Assembly (NCBI RefSeq): GCF_029767755.1
Contig: NZ_JARUQS010000001.1
Span: 186,001-250,000 of the forward strand
Reading direction: 5' to 3'
Length of the DNA: 64,000 nt
Source of the DNA: Thiomicrorhabdus sp. zzn3
GTDB taxonomy: Bacteria > Pseudomonadota > Gammaproteobacteria > Thiomicrospirales > Thiomicrospiraceae
Below are positions 15,459-25,636 of the stretch, piece after piece. Made by a program: the position numbers and the translations under genes. The notes under the pieces were generated by a model. The model had not been told where the DNA came from. It saw nothing but the letters and a program-made list of their open reading frames with translations, and searched no databases. Each line of letters starts with the position of its first letter. The stretch's first letter is position 1.

Positions 15459-18146
15459 TTAAATCAAATCCAAGGAGATGGCGACCACTTGATCGTCCTC
15501 TTCCAGCGGATGCAGGCGGAAACCGAAAGTTTTAGCCAGGTCGAGCATGGCGCGGTTTTCGGTCAGCACTTCTCCCTCCATCTTGCGCAACCCTTTCGAT
15601 TTGGCGTGGTTGATCAGGCTTTCCATTAGCAGGGAAGCCACGCCTTGGTGCTGATAATCGTCGCGGACCACAATCGCCATTTCACAAGACTGGCCGTCCG
15701 GATTGGTCGTGTAGCGTGCGACGCCGATTTCGACCGTGGTGTTGTCTCTCATCTCAGTCGTGGCAATAAACGCCATCTCCCGGTCGTAGTCGATCTGGGT
15801 GAAGCGATACAGCATTTCCGGGGTCAGGGTCTGCAGGTGCTTCATAAAGCGCAGATAGCGGCTGCGTTCGGACAGATGATCGACAAAATCCATCTCTATT
15901 TTGGCGTCTTCCGGGCGGATCGGTCGCAGGGTGATTTCCAGTCCGGTGCGGGTGCGCATGCGTCGGCTCAGTTCTTGAGGATAGGGATGGATCGCCATAT
16001 GCTGGTAGGCCGTTTGCCGTGCCGGCGGTGTTTGTACCTTGATGCGTCCATCCACTGCCATCACGCCGGTCTCATCGGCAAACAGCGGGTTGATGTCCAG
16101 TTCAATAACTTCAGAAAGCTGCGAAACCATATCGGAGAGATTGAGAAGGGTGTCGATAATCGCCTCCCGATTGACCGCGGGAAGCCCGCGGAAAATGCCG
16201 AGCCTTTTCGCCGCCTTGGTACGTGCGATCATGCGTTCGGCAATAAAGTGGTTCAGCGGCGGCAGGGCGATGCTGCGGTCCTGCTGCACTTCGACGTCAG
16301 TACCGCCGCTGCCGAAGGTGATCGCCGGCCCGAAGACCGGATCGCGGACCACGCCGATCAACAATTCGCGTGCGCAAGCGTTCTGGTACATCGGCTCCAC
16401 AGTGACCCCGAGAATTTTCGCCTCCGGTTGGGTCTGTTGGATCTGTTCCACCATTTGAGTGAAGGCGCGGCGTACCTCTTCAACGGAGTTGAGATTGAGT
16501 TTAACTCCGCCGACATCGGACTTGTGCGAGAGGTTGGGAGAATGGATTTTCAAACTTACCGGAAAGCCGAGCGATTCGGCCGCCACCATCGCCTGGTGAG
16601 CGTTGACCGCTTCAATCGCTGCCGTGATCGGTATGCTAAAGGCATGAAGCACCGCGCGCGTTTCGGTGCTGCTCAAGATCGTGCGGCCTTCTGACAGTGC
16701 GGCTTGGATAATGGCGCGGGCACCGTCAGTATCATGCTGACGGCCATACTTCTGTCCGGTGTCCGGCGCCTGCATCAACAGTTGCTGGTTTTGACGGTAG
16801 GCAGAGAGAAAAGCAAAGGCTTCCACCGCGCCTTCTGGAGTGCGGAACGAGGGGATTCTATGCTCGGCAAAATGAGAGCGCGCCTTTTTGACCAGGCTTT
16901 CGCCCAACCAGGCGGTGAAAATCGGTTTGTGCGTCGGATCTTGGTGCATCGACTCACTGATGGCATGGGCGACGGCCAGCGGTTGGGTCATCGCCTGCGG
17001 CGTCAGCAAAATCAGAATGGCATCGTATGCCTCGTCTTGTTGACACGCTTTCAGGGTTTGCGCATAGCGTTCCGGGGTCGCATCCCCGAGAATGTCGATC
17101 GGATTGCTGTGAGACCAATGTTTCGGAAGAAAGTCATTTAAGGCTTGCAGGCTGGCTTCACTTGGTTCGGGTAAATCGATGCCGAGTTCGGCCGCGCGGT
17201 CGGTGGCCATGACGCCCGGCCCGCCGCCGTTGGTGATGATCGCCAAACGGTTGCGTTTAATGTGGAGGTTGTCCGACAGGGTTTTGGCCGCCGCAAACAG
17301 TTGAGAAATGGTCTGTACGCGGATCGCTCCGGCGCGTTCAATCGCCGCATTAAACACATCGTCTCCGCCGACCAGAGCGCCGGTATGGGAAAAGGCGGCG
17401 CGCGTGCCTTCGGGCATGCGACCGGATTTCAACAGAATCACCGGCTTCATGCGCGCGGCGGCTTTGAGTCCGCTGATAAATCGGCGCGCATTGGCGATGC
17501 CTTCGATGTACAGCAAAATGCTATGGGTGTTGGGGTCCGCGGCGAGAAAATCCAAAATCTCCCCAAAATCGATGTCGGCGGCGTCACCGGTGGACACCAC
17601 CTGGGAAAAACCGACGTCATTGGCTTCGGCCCAGTCGAGTACCGCGGTGCACAGCGCGCCGGATTGCGACACTAACGCCAAATGTCCCGGACGCGCCTGG
17701 TTTTTGCTGAAGGTGGCGTTCATGCCGATCTCGGGACGGATAATGCCCAGGCAGTTGGGGCCCATCAGGCGCATGCCGTAGGCGTGGGCGTTGGCGGTCA
17801 TCTGCTGTTGCAGACGTTTGCCGACCTCGTCTTCAAAACCGGCCGACAGGATCACGGCATGGGCGACGCCTTTTTGCGCGCAGGCCTGGATAATGGATGG
17901 AATGGTGGACGCGGGCGTGGCGATGACCACCAGTTCGGGCGTTTCCGGAAGACTGGCGATGTCCGGATAACAGGCTTGATTTTGCACCGTGTCGTGTTTA
18001 GGATTGACGGGGTAAAGTCGACCTTGATAACCGGACTTCAAAAGATTAGCCAAGGCGTGGCCGCCGACGGATTCGGCGCGATCGCTGGCACCGAAAACTG
18101 CGATGCTGGCTGGCTTGAACAATCTGGAAAGATAGTGTGGTCCCAT
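15459..18146 (-). CDS. Pat-type protein lysine acetyltransferase (ADP-forming acyl-CoA ligase-like + GNAT)
   Basis: 895 residues in four domains. A CoA-binding Rossmann domain (about 1-130, IAVFGASDRAESVGGHALANLL) is followed by succinyl-CoA-ligase-like domains (about 145-460), an ATP-grasp domain (about 485-710, with SLKIHSPNLSHKSDVGGV) and a C-terminal GNAT acetyltransferase (about 730-890, with VVRDDYQHQGVASLLMESL). Length and order match Pat/YfiQ (PatZ), which acetylate lysines of acetyl-CoA synthetase and other enzymes to slow carbon flux; the ligase half is generally a sensor rather than an active enzyme. It diverges from a deacetylase gene 37 bases away, suggesting paired control of protein acetylation. 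Confidence 0.9.
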   Translation of the reverse strand: MGPHYLSRLFKPASIAVFGASDRAESVGGHALANLLKSGYQGRLYPVNPKHDTVQNQACYPDIASLPETPELVVIATPASTIPSIIQACAQKGVAHAVILSAGFEDEVGKRLQQQMTANAHAYGMRLMGPNCLGIIRPEIGMNATFSKNQARPGHLALVSQSGALCTAVLDWAEANDVGFSQVVSTGDAADIDFGEILDFLAADPNTHSILLYIEGIANARRFISGLKAAARMKPVILLKSGRMPEGTRAAFSHTGALVGGDDVFNAAIERAGAIRVQTISQLFAAAKTLSDNLHIKRNRLAIITNGGGPGVMATDRAAELGIDLPEPSEASLQALNDFLPKHWSHSNPIDILGDATPERYAQTLKACQQDEAYDAILILLTPQAMTQPLAVAHAISESMHQDPTHKPIFTAWLGESLVKKARSHFAEHRIPSFRTPEGAVEAFAFLSAYRQNQQLLMQAPDTGQKYGRQHDTDGARAIIQAALSEGRTILSSTETRAVLHAFSIPITAAIEAVNAHQAMVAAESLGFPVSLKIHSPNLSHKSDVGGVKLNLNSVEEVRRAFTQMVEQIQQTQPEAKILGVTVEPMYQNACARELLIGVVRDPVFGPAITFGSGGTDVEVQQDRSIALPPLNHFIAERMIARTKAAKRLGIFRGLPAVNREAIIDTLLNLSDMVSQLSEVIELDINPLFADETGVMAVDGRIKVQTPPARQTAYQHMAIHPYPQELSRRMRTRTGLEITLRPIRPEDAKIEMDFVDHLSERSRYLRFMKHLQTLTPEMLYRFTQIDYDREMAFIATTEMRDNTTVEIGVARYTTNPDGQSCEMAIVVRDDYQHQGVASLLMESLINHAKSKGLRKMEGEVLTENRAMLDLAKTFGFRLHPLEEDDQVVAISLDLI

Positions 18147-18183
18147 AAAATTACCTTGTTGATGTCACCTTCCAGGAAATAAG

Positions 18184-19110
18184 ATGAATCTCTATATTAC
18201 GCACTCTTCATGTCGTTTGCATGACAATGGAATCTATCATCCTGAGATGGCGGAGCGTATCGGGCGCATTGAAGATCAGTTGATCAGCAGTCAGTTGTTT
18301 GAATGGTTTTTGCATGACGAAGCCAGAGCCGCAACCGATGAAGAGATCGCTCTGGTGCATGATCCTCGTCTGATTTCGGTTTTGGAAGAAGCGTTGCCGG
18401 AAGAGGGGGTGAGGGCGGTGGACGAAGATGTCTATCTGAGTCCTCACAGCTTGGAAGCGGCGCGGCATGCCGTGGGCGCGGTGCTCGACGGGATTGACGC
18501 CTTGCATGAAGGGCGCGCTAAACGGGTGTTCTGCAATGTGCGTCCGCCGGGGCATCATGCCGAGCATCGGCGTCCGATGGGATTCTGTCTGTTTAACAAT
18601 ATCGCGATCGGTGCCGCCTATGCGCTGCACAAGCACGGCTATGAACGGATCGCGATTGTCGATTTTGACGTGCATCACGGCAATGGCACCGAAGAGTACG
18701 TGCGCAGCGAACCGCGCGTTTGGCTCGGTTCCAGTTTTGAACATCCGCTGTATCCGCACAGTGATCCGCTCTCCGATCTGGAGAATATGGTGAAAATGCC
18801 GTTGGCCAAGTTCAGCGGCAGCGACGCATTTCAACAGGCCTGGTTGGAACAGGCGTTTCCGGCATTGAGGGTCTTTCAACCGCAACTCATCCTGGTGTCC
18901 GCCGGGTTTGACGGCCACGCGTTGGACCCTTTGGCGAATTTGCGTTTGCATGAAAACGATTACGCCTGGATGGCGCAGCAGCTGGTAAAGCTCTCCGAAG
19001 AATCTGCGCAGGGCCGGGTTCTGGCAGTGCTGGAAGGCGGCTATGACCTGGGCGCCTTGTCGGTGTCGGTGCGGGAATTCATCAAAGCGTTGTTTGAACT
19101 GTCTGCTTAA
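18184..19110 (+). CDS. Histone deacetylase-family protein (class II HDAC-like)
   Basis: 308 residues with the arginase/deacetylase fold. Zinc and catalytic motifs are all present: RPPGHHAEHRRPMGFCLFNN (tandem His pair), IVDFDVHHGNGTEEYV (Asp/His zinc ligands), LVSAGFDGHALDPLANL (Asp ligand) and LEGGYDLGAL. The intact set indicates an active zinc hydrolase removing acetyl groups from lysine or from small acetylated amines. AGGAAATAAG precedes the ATG. The neighbouring divergent Pat acetyltransferase suggests that protein acetyl-lysine is the substrate; polyamine deacetylation is the alternative. Confidence 0.92.
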   Translation: MNLYITHSSCRLHDNGIYHPEMAERIGRIEDQLISSQLFEWFLHDEARAATDEEIALVHDPRLISVLEEALPEEGVRAVDEDVYLSPHSLEAARHAVGAVLDGIDALHEGRAKRVFCNVRPPGHHAEHRRPMGFCLFNNIAIGAAYALHKHGYERIAIVDFDVHHGNGTEEYVRSEPRVWLGSSFEHPLYPHSDPLSDLENMVKMPLAKFSGSDAFQQAWLEQAFPALRVFQPQLILVSAGFDGHALDPLANLRLHENDYAWMAQQLVKLSEESAQGRVLAVLEGGYDLGALSVSVREFIKALFELSA

Positions 19111-19474: not shown

Positions 19475-20650
19475 TTAAAGTTCTGAATTGATGATATCGA
19501 GAACTTGCGCCTGTGCGGCATCAAAGTCGATCTTGCCGGTAATTTCATAGACGCGGCACGCTTTTAACAACGCCAGATAATCTTGCGGATCGGGTTGGAA
19601 GCCGTTTTTGAGAAAACCGTTTTCATCACGGGCATAAAACGGCCCCGGTGTTTTCATGATTGCCGGCAGCAAGTCGGGTCGTTGTTGCAGATTTACCGGG
19701 GTGACGCGCGTCGGCTCGGCGCTTTGCGCCTGCCAGTTCAAAATAAACAGCGCATTCAATGGCGCCTCACTCTGATAACAGCCGGGGAAAAACAGGCTGT
19801 TGACCGGCGCGTCGTATTTCTGTTCCAGTGCGCGTAGGGTTTCGCTGGGCAGAGACAGAAACCGCTGACGTTCGCTGTCACTGATCAAGGCATGCAGTTT
19901 GGGGTTGTGCACGATGGTGCCCGGATTGATTCGCGGCTGTTTGGGAATGCCGCGCATCACCAAGCCGTTTTCGCCCTGTTTGAGCAGCAGACGATCGTTG
20001 CTGATAAAGTGCTGCCCCTGTTCCAGCAGATGCAGCATCAATGTGGATTTGCCGCCGCCTGAAAGCCCGGCGAAGGCGAGGCCTTGGTTTTGAATTTGTA
20101 ACCCGGACGTGTGCGCCAACACCCAACCGTGGCGCAGATGCCAGTTAAGATATTGGGTGAGGATAAAGTTAATGATCTGGCTGCTGCGGGTTTCGATCGG
20201 CCCGAATGCCAGCGGTGAAAGCTGGCTTTGCTGCGATGAAGGGGCGGGCTGCAAAAACAGCATGCCGGTTTTGACTTTGCGCAGCAAACGTACCGCTTGA
20301 CCATTAAAGTCAGTATCGAAAACGGCATCTTTACGTCCGACTTTACCCGCTTCACGTTGCCAGTCGGTCCATTCGGTGGTTTCCGCCAGAGGGGAGAGGG
20401 CATCCGTCTGATAGAAATACAGAGTTTGCTCAGCGGGCCAAGGACGATCTTCGTGATCCAGGTCCACGACCGAAATCAGCTCTTCAAAGTAATGCTCCAG
20501 AATGCGTAATAACTTGCTGGAGTTGCTGTGCAGTCGCAACGGAAAATCCGCTAGATTCAGCTGTAACACGTGTGTTTCTACCGGAAGGGCCTCCGCCACT
20601 TCCAGCATCTTCGTTAACAGAGAAGGCGAGCTTTGAGGAGTCTCTGTCAT
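19475..20650 (-). CDS. HprK-related kinase B
   Basis: 391 residues. The C-terminal half has a P-loop GLSGGGKST (195-203) followed by LMLHLLEQGQHFISNDRLLL, as in HPr kinase/phosphorylase-like proteins. The N-terminal half (about 25-190) is the domain seen in the HprK-related kinase B group. These are not true HprK enzymes, and no PTS HPr gene is nearby. The ATG overlaps the TGA of the ATP-grasp gene (ATGA), so translation is coupled. It is the last gene of a six-gene minus-strand cluster with ATP-grasp, an APH-like kinase, an amphi-Trp protein and two phosphatases. The substrate is unknown; a small metabolite or peptide phosphorylated and then ligated is conceivable. Confidence 0.8.
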   Translation of the reverse strand: MTETPQSSPSLLTKMLEVAEALPVETHVLQLNLADFPLRLHSNSSKLLRILEHYFEELISVVDLDHEDRPWPAEQTLYFYQTDALSPLAETTEWTDWQREAGKVGRKDAVFDTDFNGQAVRLLRKVKTGMLFLQPAPSSQQSQLSPLAFGPIETRSSQIINFILTQYLNWHLRHGWVLAHTSGLQIQNQGLAFAGLSGGGKSTLMLHLLEQGQHFISNDRLLLKQGENGLVMRGIPKQPRINPGTIVHNPKLHALISDSERQRFLSLPSETLRALEQKYDAPVNSLFFPGCYQSEAPLNALFILNWQAQSAEPTRVTPVNLQQRPDLLPAIMKTPGPFYARDENGFLKNGFQPDPQDYLALLKACRVYEITGKIDFDAAQAQVLDIINSEL

Positions 20651-21558
20651 GCCGTTTGTTTTGCTTTGTTCTGTAATAGGCGCTCAATCACATAGTCGGT
20701 GTAGCGGGCGGCCATATTCAATCCTAATCCTTCTTGAGCCCCTTTAAAGCCGCCGAATGCGGAGACTTCAAAGCACACTGGACCTTGTTCGGTTTCGGCA
20801 ATGTCTACGGTGGTGTAACTCAGGTCAAACTGCGCTTGCGCCTTACGGGCGATTTCGATGATCTCTTCGCTGGGCTCTACCTTGGCGTATTTGCCGCCCG
20901 AATGGATCGTGGTGTTCCAGCTGCTGCCATTGCCCACGCGAGCATAAGCGCCTTGATATTCGCCGCCTAAAAACACCAGTCCCATATCGTGGCCCGGCAG
21001 TTTAAGCTTCTTTTGCACATAATAAAAACCGTGGATTGCATAGTAGTCGTGCAATTGTTGTTTGAGTTTCTTTTCCGAAGTGTCACTGGAAAGCACTTCC
21101 ATGCCGCGGGCTTTGGTGGAAAACAGCGGTTTGAGCACGACCTTGCCGAATTTCTGTACGGCATGGTAGGCGGCGTTAAGATCCTCGGTAATCACCGTTT
21201 CCGGCATAGGGATATTGGCTTTGGCCAGCGATACGGTGCAGCTCATGCGGTCCACCAGGCGGATGATTTCTGCCGGGTTGGAAAAAATCTGCACCCCGCA
21301 GCACTCCACAAAACGCAGAATTTCCAAACGGTCCAGCACCTTAGGACTGTAGGTCTGCGAAATTTTTTTGATAATCAAACCGTCCAACTTACATAAGCAT
21401 TGACCTTGATAGAGAACTTCTGGTTTGGAGAGATCGGCGACGACTTTTTCGATGTCGATCACCAGGCGGAAACCGGTGCGTTTTTCGATTTCATCCGCCA
21501 AAATTTCGGTTGACCATTTCCCGGGAATGCCGACCACCCCGATCTTCAGATTAGTCAT
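20647..21558 (-). CDS. ATP-grasp enzyme of the HprK-B-linked cluster
   Basis: About 303 residues, RimK/glutathione-synthetase-like ATP-grasp. It starts MTNLKIGVVGIPGKWSTEIL, with a pre-ATP-grasp fold. Nucleotide-binding elements include KVVLKPLFSTKARGMEV and the later VDIAETEQGPVCFEVSAFGGFKG, where acidic residues would hold magnesium. Such enzymes ligate a carboxylate, via acyl phosphate, to an amine or thiol. The start ATG at 21558 overlaps the end of the APH-like gene by eight bases (ATGACTAA) and has AAGGA upstream. Its own stop overlaps the next start. The substrate is unknown, but tight coupling to a kinase says they act on one pathway. Confidence 0.8.
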   Translation of the reverse strand: MTNLKIGVVGIPGKWSTEILADEIEKRTGFRLVIDIEKVVADLSKPEVLYQGQCLCKLDGLIIKKISQTYSPKVLDRLEILRFVECCGVQIFSNPAEIIRLVDRMSCTVSLAKANIPMPETVITEDLNAAYHAVQKFGKVVLKPLFSTKARGMEVLSSDTSEKKLKQQLHDYYAIHGFYYVQKKLKLPGHDMGLVFLGGEYQGAYARVGNGSSWNTTIHSGGKYAKVEPSEEIIEIARKAQAQFDLSYTTVDIAETEQGPVCFEVSAFGGFKGAQEGLGLNMAARYTDYVIERLLQNKAKQTA

Positions 21559-23185
21559 GGAACAGTTCCTTTGGAATGCGATAGGTTTGTCGTTGCTGGC
21601 TGTCGAGTTGCAGCAGTTGTTCAATCAGGTAGCGCCCTTTAAAGTGCATGGATTTGGCATGTTCTTTATCCAGCACAAAACGCGTTGACGTCAAAAAGGA
21701 GCGTGCTAGCCCCAAAGCCATACGCAGCTGGTAATCCTTATCCTCGATCTCTGCGGCGTAACGTGCGCCGAAGTCGAAAGTCGCTTCCATCGCCATAATG
21801 ATGCGCTTGCATACGATGGGTTCAAAATTGGTGATCCGGTAGAAGGAGACCATCAGCACCGAGAGATCCTGGACATAGTCGGAATAGTCCGAACGATGCA
21901 GATCAATGAAACTGATTTGATTCTGCAGAACGTCGTAGATGATGTTGTCTACATTAAAATCGCCGTGGATATAGACGGCGTTGGGAACACTGAGTTTCTT
22001 CTCGAGTTTTTGGGCTTTTTTAACGATGCTTTCCAGCGAAGCCTGTTTGACCGAACCGATCTGCAAGCCTTTGAGGTTAAAGTCAGGGTGAACGTCATAG
22101 ATGTGGCCGAGACGCTTTTGCAGCTGCTTCATAAAGTCAGCCGGATGCACTTCGTCAATCCGCGTTTGTTCCCAGATATCGTGCAACGTGGCAAACAAGG
22201 TATTTAAGGCCTTTTTCAGCGTTTTGCGGTCTTCGGTTAGCAGTAGCTTGTCAAAGGTATGGCCGGTGAGGTATTCAAACAGCAGAGCGGCTTTGTCCCC
22301 CTGTTTCTGATAAGAATACACCTCCGGTGCGATGCCGGGGAATTTCTGGTGCCAGCTTTCAATGCTCGCTTTTTCTTCCAGCAGTTTTTCTTTTTTGCCC
22401 TGTTTGAAAATCGCCAGTATGCGGTCTTCGCTTTCAGCCGAGGAGCGCACCCCGGAAATGGTGCAGCCGGATTTGGTTTCACCCATTGAGTGAATGTTCA
22501 GTTCCTCGCTGGAGACTTCTTCTTTAAGTGCGGATAACGTCGCTTCCAGAGCATGATAACGGTCAATCTGGATAAACTGACCAAGATTGGCGGAGATGAT
22601 GCCTTCTCCGATACGCAGCAGAGCATCGCCCATCAGATTGATGTCTTTCAGAGTAAAACAGGCATGTAGCAGTGCTTCGGTATTTTGTCCTGTTTTAAGG
22701 CGCTTTTTGTATTTTTCCAGTTGCTGAGAGCAGGTCTTGTCAATGCGCACCTGTAAGCGACAGATGTCGATGGAAAGGGTTAAGTGCTCACTTTCGATGG
22801 CTGGGATAATCAGCGATAGCCCTTTATTGAGGTCGTTGAGCGCATTAAACACCGACTTTTTCTGGATCAGTTTCAGAGTATTCTGTTTTTTCAGCTGATA
22901 GGCCATCTCCTGAAGCTGCGAGGAAAGCGCTTTTAGACTGTGACTGATATGTTCGTAACTTTGGATGATGACCCGGTCGTCGTCGCAATCGTTCTGGCAG
23001 TACTGCTGGCCGGCACGGTTAAGCAGGTTGACGTGGGTGTTTTCGATGTAATCAATACGTCCCAGGCTTTTGTCTAACAGAGCGACGTCTTGGGTTTCCA
23101 AACCGTCGGTCAGGGTTTGCAGCTGCTTCTGGACATCCAGAATCAGAAAGCGCAGGGCTTCATAGAGTAAGGGAATGGTTTTCAT
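21551..23185 (-). CDS. APH-like kinase with N-terminal helical domain
   Basis: 544 residues. The first 220 or so are helical and PhoU/DUF47-like in character. Residues about 225-520 form an aminoglycoside-phosphotransferase-like kinase domain with the catalytic loop YIHGDFNVDNIIYD (407-414 HGDFNVDN) and the metal-binding SFIDLHRSDY (427-433), so it appears active. The N-lobe has ILAIFKQGKKEKLLEEKASI. The true substrate is unlikely to be an antibiotic, since resistance enzymes lack this N-terminal domain and are not clustered with ATP-grasp and HprK-like proteins. It is cotranscribed with both neighbours. Confidence 0.75.
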   Translation of the reverse strand: MKTIPLLYEALRFLILDVQKQLQTLTDGLETQDVALLDKSLGRIDYIENTHVNLLNRAGQQYCQNDCDDDRVIIQSYEHISHSLKALSSQLQEMAYQLKKQNTLKLIQKKSVFNALNDLNKGLSLIIPAIESEHLTLSIDICRLQVRIDKTCSQQLEKYKKRLKTGQNTEALLHACFTLKDINLMGDALLRIGEGIISANLGQFIQIDRYHALEATLSALKEEVSSEELNIHSMGETKSGCTISGVRSSAESEDRILAIFKQGKKEKLLEEKASIESWHQKFPGIAPEVYSYQKQGDKAALLFEYLTGHTFDKLLLTEDRKTLKKALNTLFATLHDIWEQTRIDEVHPADFMKQLQKRLGHIYDVHPDFNLKGLQIGSVKQASLESIVKKAQKLEKKLSVPNAVYIHGDFNVDNIIYDVLQNQISFIDLHRSDYSDYVQDLSVLMVSFYRITNFEPIVCKRIIMAMEATFDFGARYAAEIEDKDYQLRMALGLARSFLTSTRFVLDKEHAKSMHFKGRYLIEQLLQLDSQQRQTYRIPKELFHD

Positions 23186-23196
23186 GGACTTGAAGG

Positions 23197-23502
23197 TTAC
23201 GCCTTGCTCTTCTTGGTTTTTTTGGCCTTTTTGGCTTTGATTTTGAGGGTGGCCGGTTCCGAGTCTTCCTGTTCCTTGTTGTTCCAGCTAATACGCAGGC
23301 GCAGTTCCTGCACTTTTTTGGTCTGACTGGCCTTGATACGCAAGCGGCCGAATGCCTGAGGGTGCAACAGCAAAGTTTCCTCTTCGTCCGAGAACAGGAT
23401 TTCGCCTTTTTTAATGCCTTCGGTCAAGGCCTCAAGATAGCTGATGATGGCGTCCTGATCCTGAAGGGATTCATGCTCAAAGTAATTTGTCTTATTGGCC
23501 AT
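23197..23502 (-). CDS. Amphi-Trp domain protein
   Basis: 101 residues. It resembles the small amphi-Trp domain family: FEHESLQDQDAIISYLEALTEGIKKGEI, then a strand with LLLHPQAFGRLRIKASQTKKVQELRLRISW. The tail is very lysine-rich (KIKAKKAKKTKKSKA). The family is known mainly from its association with HprK-related kinase B and ATP-grasp genes, and that is the setting here, eleven bases before the APH-like kinase. Function is unknown. The lysine tail could be the site of modification by the neighbouring kinase and ligase or could bind nucleic acid; both are guesses. Confidence 0.75.
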   Translation of the reverse strand: MANKTNYFEHESLQDQDAIISYLEALTEGIKKGEILFSDEEETLLLHPQAFGRLRIKASQTKKVQELRLRISWNNKEQEDSEPATLKIKAKKAKKTKKSKA

Positions 23503-23544
23503 GAGAAACTCTCTGTGTGAAGGGTATCGGTTTATGGAAACAGC

Positions 23545-24747
23545 CTAAGCGCACGTGAATACAGGGTGGAACTGTCTGGCGTATGGAAGTTCGCTGCAAA
23601 GGGCCGATACCGTGCCGTTGGTGGAAAATATTGTAACAGCTTCCCCCGGTGTTTTCATATTCGACTTGCGGCGGCAATTGGCGTTAAGCTGGGTGTCGCA
23701 TTCAAAGTTCAGCAGGCCTTGGCGTACAAACAGCTGCTGGCCGTTGAGGTGGCTCCGATGTCCATTGACCAGGGCCAAAATGCCGATTTTGCGCAACGCT
23801 TGAGAACCGGTTTCCGTGAGCGGCCAGTCTTTGGGACGGTATTTGGTGCGGAATACATTCCCCATTTCCGAGTAGTACATCTGGAAGATCTGCCCTTCAC
23901 GCATCTGTTGCTTAAAACGGTCATTCAGCTCCTTATCGGTACGGTTTTGCAGTTGCAATGCCACGCGATCATCGAGTCCGGCGTGACTGAACAGGTAACT
24001 GCCGCTGCGGTGCAAAAGATTCAATTCACGGAAAAACCAGGCAAACTCACCTTGCGGGTCGATAAACAGCGATTTGGCTTTTTGCGCCGCCTGATACACT
24101 TGGGTCAAATTCAAACCGTAATCGGAACAGGCCTGAAGAAAATCCGGTTGTTTTTTGCGGATCTGTTTCAACTCCTTATGGATTTGCTGCGTATTCATGA
24201 AGTGCTGTGCGTATTGCGGAAAATATTCAAACCATTCCTGTTGCGGAAACAATGCGTTGTGAATCAGACTTTCCGGCAGATCAGGCCCTGTTTGATCCTG
24301 GCAGTAGTGTTGGTAAATTTCCGCCAGAAAAGCCGCGGTTTTACGCCCCATGCGCACAAAAAAGTGCGACTGGCGCAAGTCGTCCATAAAATCCAGTGCC
24401 AGCAGTCCCGCATAGACGCGGATGTCGTGGTTTCCGGCCAGCAACACCAAGTCGGCCCCGGCTTGACGCAGTTGGTTCAGCAGCTTGAACAGGGCCAGAT
24501 TGCTGGGCCCCTTGTCAAAGCAGTCGCCTCCAATAAGAATCTGCGCCTGTTTCGCCTTCTCGGTCAAAACCAGGTTGCCAGGCGTACTTTGAAACGTTAC
24601 CAGTTCGCTGAGTTTCAATGAACGCAAAAAGGCGTCTGCGTCTGCATGCAGGTCGCAGAAAAAGTAGGTGTTTTTCTGCGGCATCAGCCAAGCTTCCAAA
24701 GGGATTTTGATTGTATCTTGAGGTTGCCAGGGAGTAATTGGGGCCAT
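23545..24747 (-). CDS. Calcineurin-like metallophosphoesterase
   Basis: 400 residues with the binuclear metal motifs of the family: CDLHAD near residue 32, GGDCFDKGP, LLAGNHDIRV and SHAGLD. It resembles serine/threonine-phosphatase-like and Ap4A-hydrolase-like phosphoesterases, with a helical insert between GNHD and the late histidines. The ATG at 24747 is chosen because GGAG lies nine bases before it; an upstream in-frame TTG is less likely. It is transcribed with the kinase/ATP-grasp genes and may remove a phosphate put on by them. Confidence 0.82.
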   Translation of the reverse strand: MAPITPWQPQDTIKIPLEAWLMPQKNTYFFCDLHADADAFLRSLKLSELVTFQSTPGNLVLTEKAKQAQILIGGDCFDKGPSNLALFKLLNQLRQAGADLVLLAGNHDIRVYAGLLALDFMDDLRQSHFFVRMGRKTAAFLAEIYQHYCQDQTGPDLPESLIHNALFPQQEWFEYFPQYAQHFMNTQQIHKELKQIRKKQPDFLQACSDYGLNLTQVYQAAQKAKSLFIDPQGEFAWFFRELNLLHRSGSYLFSHAGLDDRVALQLQNRTDKELNDRFKQQMREGQIFQMYYSEMGNVFRTKYRPKDWPLTETGSQALRKIGILALVNGHRSHLNGQQLFVRQGLLNFECDTQLNANCRRKSNMKTPGEAVTIFSTNGTVSALCSELPYARQFHPVFTCA

Positions 24748-24787
24748 GTTCGCGTTCTCCAAATTGCGCTGATGCGTCTGTCAGCGT

Positions 24788-25522
24788 TTAATCCATTAAC
24801 AAAGCGTTAGATTGAGTCTGTTCATTGCGCACTTTCCACTCGCCGCCCACTTTGCAAAGTGAGCAGGCCTGTTCGTTTTCACTCCAGCGGACTTCAAAAT
24901 AGATCGGGTCGGCGTAGTGCATCGAATAGCGGCCAATATCATCAAACTCCAGTGCCCCCAACAGATAAGCGGCATGACGAAACGAGGCACCGTGACCGAC
25001 CATGACGGTGAGGGTGTCGTGTTGCGCGCTGGTGTGAACTTGCTGCATCACTTCGACAATGCCGTGGCAGACCCGTTTTCCGGCCTCCATTAAGGATTCG
25101 GCGCCATCGAATGGCAGACGGTAGTGCGGGTCGGATTTCCAGTTGTGCGGAGGCAGCGGGTAACGCGGGTCTTGCTGCAGAATCTGCTCGATTTCGGTAA
25201 TGGTCAGGTTGGCCGCGGCACCGACACTGCGTTCGTTAAGCTGTTCGGAACTGATCAGATGCGCCTGTTGATGGAGATTAAGTCGAATCTGTTCGGCCGT
25301 TTGCCAGGCTCTGAGCAGGTTGGAAGTATGAATCCTAGGCTCAATCTGTAAATTGTGTGTCTCGGCAAAGGCTAAAAGCGGCTGAGCCGCATGGCGGGAC
25401 TGCTGAATACCGCGTTCGGTGAGGGCGAACGGCTGCCAGGCGCTGGGAACGTTCGGTTTTTGGCGATATTCGCCGTGGCGGATAAACGCCAGGATGGATC
25501 TTGCTTGCTTCATTCGGCCCAT
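24788..25522 (-). CDS. Histidine phosphatase (phosphoglycerate mutase-like) family protein
   Basis: 244 residues. The N-terminal LAFIRHGEYRQ carries the catalytic RHG histidine, HTSNLLRAWQTAEQI is the second conserved region, and VGHGASFRHAAYLL holds the second catalytic histidine. These proteins form a phosphohistidine intermediate and act on phosphoproteins, sugars or nucleotides; it lacks features of true glycolytic phosphoglycerate mutase. It is the first gene of the minus-strand cluster down to 19475 and is the second phosphatase in it. Either of two ATGs (25522 or 25513) could be the start. Confidence 0.82.
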   Translation of the reverse strand: MGRMKQARSILAFIRHGEYRQKPNVPSAWQPFALTERGIQQSRHAAQPLLAFAETHNLQIEPRIHTSNLLRAWQTAEQIRLNLHQQAHLISSEQLNERSVGAAANLTITEIEQILQQDPRYPLPPHNWKSDPHYRLPFDGAESLMEAGKRVCHGIVEVMQQVHTSAQHDTLTVMVGHGASFRHAAYLLGALEFDDIGRYSMHYADPIYFEVRWSENEQACSLCKVGGEWKVRNEQTQSNALLMD

Positions 25523-25607
25523 TTTAGGCAGGCCTGGTGAAACTCTTTTAACGGTTTTGTGACTGTTTTATGACGTTGGCGATGAGAGCAGAGGGGGAAT
25601 GAATGGC

Positions 25608-25636
25608 AATAAAAAAGGCGCTTCAAAGCGCCTTTC
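25608..25636 (-). terminator. Rho-independent terminator after nrdB
   Basis: AAAGGCGC (25614-25621) pairs with GCGCCTTT (25628-25635) around TTCAAA. On the minus strand the stem is followed by a run of T residues, as expected 20 bases beyond the nrdB stop. Confidence 0.88.

Follow-up and report, generated by a model that had tools for sequence, protein, structure and literature searches.

What does the GAK set of proteins do for the cells that carry it? The question is raised by six genes on one strand of the genome of Thiomicrorhabdus sp. zzn3, at positions 19475-25522 of the 64,000-nucleotide stretch of contig NZ_JARUQS010000001.1 that was analysed here, which we refer to as the window. The set is already named in NCBIfam (TIGR04355, TIGR04356, TIGR04354 and TIGR04357), under names that carry no function. 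We consider that the six genes, which represent the GAK system in its Thiomicrospiraceae form, are probably an operon of the Pho regulon with a role in intracellular phosphate homeostasis. Our computations revealed a recurring gene set, a PhoU domain fused to a kinase, recurring Pho-box-like sites and a neighbourhood of phosphate and CHAD genes.

The window contains six intact open reading frames, all on the minus strand (Table 1), and neighbouring genes in the run overlap or nearly touch. The genes for the APH-like protein and the ATP-grasp enzyme share ATGACTAA (21551-21558), and those for the ATP-grasp enzyme and HprK-related kinase B (HprK-B) share ATGA (20647-20650). The motifs HGDFNVDN, IDLHRSD and GLSGGGKST are all present in the window proteins, and all five enzymes have intact catalytic motifs that are kept across homologues. 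A sequence-only reading of this DNA had described such a cluster, with these motifs and overlaps, and had linked it to a curated GAK set, and both descriptions hold. HprK-B, the ATP-grasp enzyme and the amphi-Trp protein all exceed the NCBIfam cut-offs for models linked to the set. The locus is present as a single copy in the 2.37-Mb genome, and the GAK CofD-like protein (TIGR04357) found no match anywhere in that genome.

To count partners we used an ATP-grasp alignment searched against GTDB contigs, which gave 487 relatives. The best 80 of these were retrieved as loci, from Gammaproteobacteria, some Alphaproteobacteria and Planctomycetes, and the 50 with full flanks were used for the partner counts. 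The APH-like and amphi-Trp genes are found in all 50, HprK-B in 48, and the metallophosphoesterase and the histidine phosphatase in 45 each. The order APH-like, ATP-grasp, HprK-B, histidine phosphatase, metallophosphoesterase, amphi-Trp was observed in 32/50 loci, and the order histidine phosphatase, metallophosphoesterase, amphi-Trp, APH-like, ATP-grasp, HprK-B in 10/50. The cluster is not a product of chance, since dozens of genomes, spread over two phyla and several classes, carry these genes in order. This neighbourhood check upholds the proposed membership of the APH-like kinase and the two phosphatases alongside the kinase/ATP-grasp pair, and the set is therefore larger than the curated one, whose names omit the APH-like protein, both phosphatases and the Nudix and SixA-Nudix proteins described below. 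An independent phylum-wide draw of genomes gave 14 positives in 399, with 13 loci besides the window's own; 12 of the 13 carry both the APH-like and the metallophosphoesterase genes, while the remaining one is matched only in part, where its contig ends. A class-wide profile search for the APH-like protein found no clear genome that has it without HprK-B; of the two exceptions, one was a fragment and the other a gene whose contig is 3.5 kb long.

Within the Thiomicrospiraceae the ATP-grasp gene is present in 32/59 genomes, mostly with the same partners, and the operon is syntenic, adjoining nrdB, across much of the family. GAK operons were also observed on Rhodobacterales plasmids, from Qingshengfaniella and Tritonibacter, and the set therefore moves between replicons. 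A Rhodobacterales plasmid annotated in RefSeq has this run of genes too, and there only generic names are given to the kinase, the phosphatases and the Nudix gene. In one genome of the window's genus (G321) the APH-like and ATP-grasp genes are broken in an otherwise intact locus, a case of loss in progress. A contig binned as 'Halobacteria archaeon' (L171) bears an Ectothiorhodospiraceae-type GAK region, and is probably a misbinned metagenome contig.

Three further genes recur around the operon, none of them seen in 39 control stretches. A SixA-Nudix fusion lies between HprK-B and the histidine phosphatase in most distant relatives (44/80 loci), a Nudix gene is often found ahead of the operon (42/80), and a CofD-like gene, identified by similarity, is often divergent beside it (24/80). 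As the CofD-like gene is present in just 24 of the 80 loci that have the rest, it is not defining for the set, and we rejected it as an essential partner given its absence from the Thiomicrorhabdus genome.

The APH-like protein is a PhoU domain fused to a kinase. A Pfam search detected PhoU (PF01895) in 45/50 of its homologues (best E 1.6e-16), while the window's own protein searched alone gave no match at E < 1. Against the PDB, the family profile matched the PhoU structure 4q25 over residues 17-221 (E 2.4e-11), and also 1t72, 1xwm and 2i0m; its second half matched APH(3')-Ia (E 1.6e-6). The predicted model (pLDDT 89) is all-helical in its N-terminal part and APH/choline-kinase-like in its C-terminal part. 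A PhoU with a C-terminal low-molecular-weight phosphatase domain was observed near the GAK operon of the misbinned contig (L171:1-876), and is another fusion of PhoU to a phosphoryl-handling enzyme.

The region ahead of the operon was analysed for promoter signals. A strong intrinsic terminator, a hairpin followed by a T run, closes the upstream nrdB-like gene, so that transcription of the GAK genes probably depends on a separate promoter. A pattern scan did not list this hairpin, and a sigma-70 consensus scan returned sites no more frequent than in shuffles. Ahead of the first gene lies the Pho-box-like site ACGTCATAAAACAGTCAC, which agrees at 15/18 positions, as a sequence match alone, with the Pho-box sequence CTGTCATAAAACTGTCAY. 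When up to 3 mismatches to CTGTCATAAAACTGTCAY are allowed, the genome has only 11 sites, compared to 2 for the reversed control. Others among them, with gene names read by eye, lie between pit-like and pstS-like genes and at the start of a btaA-like gene; pit/pstS and btaA are textbook phosphate-starvation genes. Further sites precede CobW-like, chemoreceptor-like, cold-shock, EAL-like, UvrB-like and Sox-like genes, which have no evident phosphate role, and of these some may be chance and some unexpected members of the Pho regulon. The site at the btaA-like gene, which is a betaine-lipid gene, suggests that this chemolithotroph remodels its lipids under phosphate control. Across the Thiomicrospiraceae, a score of 11.5 or more (out of 15) is reached by 25/33 operon starts, compared to 5/247 upstream regions taken as controls in these loci, and most of the sites sit at a similar distance ahead of the first gene, whichever gene leads. 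Outside the family the enrichment is weaker, with 9/61 operon starts and 12/377 controls at a score of 12 (rank test p = 4.5e-4).

Table 1. Coordinates of the six genes and of the upstream signals in the window.
Feature	Position	Strand	Details
Histidine phosphatase superfamily protein	24788..25522	-	PF00300 67.9 bits; RHG motif, second His H177; branch-1
Metallophosphoesterase, PPP/ApaH-like	23545..24762	-	PF00149 24.5 bits; GDCFDKG and GNHD motifs
Amphi-Trp domain protein	23197..23502	-	TIGR04354 62.8 bits (cut-off 31); model pLDDT 83
PhoU-kinase fusion (APH-like protein)	21551..23185	-	PF01636 APH; residues 1-220 PhoU, 225-544 APH/choline-kinase-like
GAK ATP-grasp enzyme	20647..21558 (ATG at 21558)	-	TIGR04356 462 bits (cut-off 300)
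HprK-related kinase B (HprK-B)	19475..20650	-	TIGR04355 308.7 bits (cut-off 200); P-loop GLSGGGKST
Pho-box-like site, two 7-mers 11 bp apart	25559..25576	-	36 bp before first gene
Intrinsic terminator of nrdB-like gene	25611..25634	-	fold -19.1 kcal/mol, z -4.66

Phosphate genes also recur beside the operon. A PstS-like, PhoU or CHAD/CYTH-CHAD neighbour was found in 11/80 GAK loci and in 0/39 control 20-kb stretches (Fisher p = 0.01). In Ketobacter, pstS, pstC, pstA, pstB and phoU lie directly upstream of the GAK operon; in Stieleria, pst genes lie downstream and a CHAD gene upstream; and in Rhodopirellula a CHAD gene sits beside it. Four Ectothiorhodospiraceae-type loci have PstS-like and CYTH-CHAD genes nearby, three of the four with PhoU as well, and one Gammaproteobacterium has a free PhoU within the operon. 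CYTH-CHAD-like genes were also observed in 2/13 of the independent loci. CHAD domains bind polyphosphate (PMC6537752). CHAD and CYTH-CHAD proteins are recurrent neighbours of GAK that stand outside its core operon. In the window's genus a CHAD gene is present in 14/14 genomes with GAK and 4/14 without, a comparison uncorrected for phylogeny; in the Thiomicrorhabdus genome itself it is unlinked to the operon. Compared with the Pst-PhoR-PhoB system, GAK likewise has a PhoU domain, a Pho-box-like promoter site and, in some relatives, pst/phoU neighbours, but differs in that an APH-like kinase is joined to its PhoU, whose metal-ligand motifs appear degenerate. The phosphate context had escaped the sequence-only reading because it missed the PhoU domain, the Pho-box-like site and the genes of the SixA-Nudix, Nudix and CofD-like kinds.

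A number of observations count against a role in phosphate homeostasis. Most of the 80 loci lack a Pst, PhoU or CHAD neighbour, and a clear Pho box is missing from most relatives outside the Thiomicrospiraceae. The p value of 4.5e-14 for the family comparison (25/33 against 5/247) overstates the evidence because related sequences are not independent, and the sites were scored against a consensus taken from E. coli. In other genera the association between CHAD and GAK is gone (p = 0.70). PPK1 was rejected as a discriminating partner: it is universal in the family and therefore uninformative. The E(D)xxxD metal-ligand motifs in both PhoU repeats of the fusion are partly retained, often substituted and alignment-dependent, so that sensing may differ from that of PhoU itself. 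Finally, three Sulfurivirga-type genomes have only the amphi-Trp, PhoU-kinase and ATP-grasp genes, without HprK-B, the phosphatases or the Pho box; this three-gene set is a natural minimal version of GAK.

The remaining proteins offer clues to the chemistry. In HprK-B, the P-loop, H180, K201 and D219 align with the corresponding HprK residues in a weak alignment to 3tqf (E 0.06), and the catalytic His, P-loop Lys and Asp are invariant among the full-flank loci. HprK-B differs from HprK in having its own N-terminal region and Asn218 beside the catalytic Asp, where 3tqf has Asp, and its amphi-Trp partner is not HPr-like in fold. The nearest characterised relatives of the ATP-grasp enzyme are the alpha-L-glutamate ligases MptN, the RimK family and LysX, with which it shares the ATP-grasp family. 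It passes only the GAK cut-off, scoring 154.5 bits against 350 for MptN, 105 against 143 for the RimK family and 99 against 276 for LysX. Its invariant FEVSAFGGF segment reads EVS where the relatives use the metal-ligand EVN, a Ser replacing the metal-binding Asn. Because it reaches no cut-off of a characterised ligase and carries this replacement, its reaction should not be assumed. The metallophosphoesterase gave weak matches in the PDB to PPP-type phosphatases. In the amphi-Trp protein the segment FxHESLQD is conserved, with H10 invariant and S12 near-invariant, whereas the C-terminus is variable among homologues. The predicted model matched no PDB fold, HPr included, and the idea of an HPr-like protein is unsupported. 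The amphi-Trp protein is nonetheless the best protein candidate for a carrier or substrate, since no full locus is without it and it carries the invariant His and near-invariant Ser.

How might these proteins act together in phosphate homeostasis? When phosphate is scarce, PhoB would induce the operon via its Pho box. The step gated by phosphate status would likely be the PhoU-kinase fusion, in which the PhoU half may read the state of Pst/PhoR or a ligand and the APH-like half may phosphorylate the substrate of the module. HprK-B and the ATP-grasp enzyme, the latter resembling glutamate ligases, could attach further phosphoryl and amino-acyl groups, which the histidine and PPP-like phosphatases, joined in most relatives by the SixA-Nudix and Nudix hydrolases, would remove. 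The amphi-Trp protein, with its FxHESLQD segment, would act as a scaffold or modified carrier, and the CHAD genes suggest a connection to polyphosphate stores. PhoB control, PhoU gating, the direction of the reactions, their substrate and the polyphosphate link are all inferred. A bolder proposal, which we advance only tentatively, is that GAK is a new kind of phosphate-homeostasis system across several hundred largely marine species, in which a PhoU-gated kinase, an HprK-type kinase and an ATP-grasp enzyme build a phosphorylated, amino-acylated store, signal or carrier protein that phosphatases and Nudix enzymes degrade.

Other explanations were also weighed. By analogy with HprK acting on HPr and RimK acting on S6, the operon could be a protein-modification circuit, in which HprK-B and/or the PhoU-kinase phosphorylates the amphi-Trp protein, the ATP-grasp enzyme possibly glutamylates it, and the PPP-like and histidine phosphatases reset it. 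The constancy of the amphi-Trp protein with its conserved His and Ser, the retained catalytic residues of HprK-B and, weakly, the PPP resemblance of the metallophosphoesterase all favour such a circuit, which we nevertheless regard as rather unlikely. The amphi-Trp model is unlike HPr or any other PDB fold, and the C-terminus, which RimK-type enzymes would target, is variable. The sequence-only reading had proposed reversible phosphorylation and ligation, maybe on a Lys-rich amphi-Trp protein; the phosphorylation theme fits, while the Lys-rich tail does not stand as the modified site, being mostly limited to the Thiomicrospiraceae and missing in most homologues in the alignment. A circuit of this kind could also be the output of a phosphate module instead of an exclusive alternative to it. 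A little less likely again, in our view, is a small-molecule pathway that makes and recycles a phosphorylated, glutamylated metabolite, either one whose tail chemistry resembles that of coenzyme F420 or methanopterin, or a compound that serves as a phosphate reserve. The MptN and RimK-family kinship of the ATP-grasp enzyme points this way, as do the Nudix and SixA-Nudix hydrolases, the usual small hydroxyl substrates of APH-family kinases, and the CofD-like gene (phospholactyl transferase family, PF01933) divergent beside many operons. That gene, however, is absent from the Thiomicrorhabdus genome and was not found in 56/80 loci, the operon has no obvious scaffold-making enzyme, and the PhoU fusion and the amphi-Trp protein are left unexplained.

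The Pho-box-like site at the btaA-like gene would also fit an operon that aids phospholipid replacement during phosphate starvation, beside betaine-lipid synthesis. We find this phosphorus-sparing role improbable, as the conserved members are soluble kinases, a ligase and phosphatases, with no lipid enzyme among them. An anti-phage defence or other mobile accessory system might be suspected from the patchy distribution, in about half of the family's genomes, and from the plasmid copies. We judge it highly improbable: PADLOC gave no match, no defence neighbours were noticed, the operon is syntenic by nrdB in much of the family, and no close phage homologue was found. Viral carriage was likewise rejected, with no GAK locus in viral contigs and only distant RimK-like genes in cyanophages.

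A phosphate role would have wider consequences, as many genomes encode GAK proteins that are annotated by name only; the scan with the ATP-grasp enzyme by itself gave several hundred relatives. In the open-licence literature we found nothing on amphi-Trp, the HprK-related kinase or a PhoU-kinase fusion, no description of GAK function, its phosphatases or a phosphate context, and no report of PhoB-dependent GAK induction at low phosphate; one paper mentions CofD and an unrelated ATP-grasp family (PMC8407117). The tie to phosphate, through the PhoU-kinase, the Pho-box-like sites and the Pst/CHAD neighbours, opens a curated but unexplained system to ordinary phosphate-starvation tests, and points to phosphate control through PhoU-dependent enzymatic phosphorylation and not through PhoR alone. 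As its hosts include chemosynthetic sulfur oxidisers and tubeworm symbionts, GAK may matter for how these organisms store or ration phosphate.

Adjoining the GAK genes, at 15459-19110, we observed a gene for a fusion of an ADP-forming acyl-CoA synthetase with a GNAT acetyltransferase (minus strand), divergent from that of a histone-deacetylase-family protein (plus strand). These are likely a reversible protein-acetylation pair.

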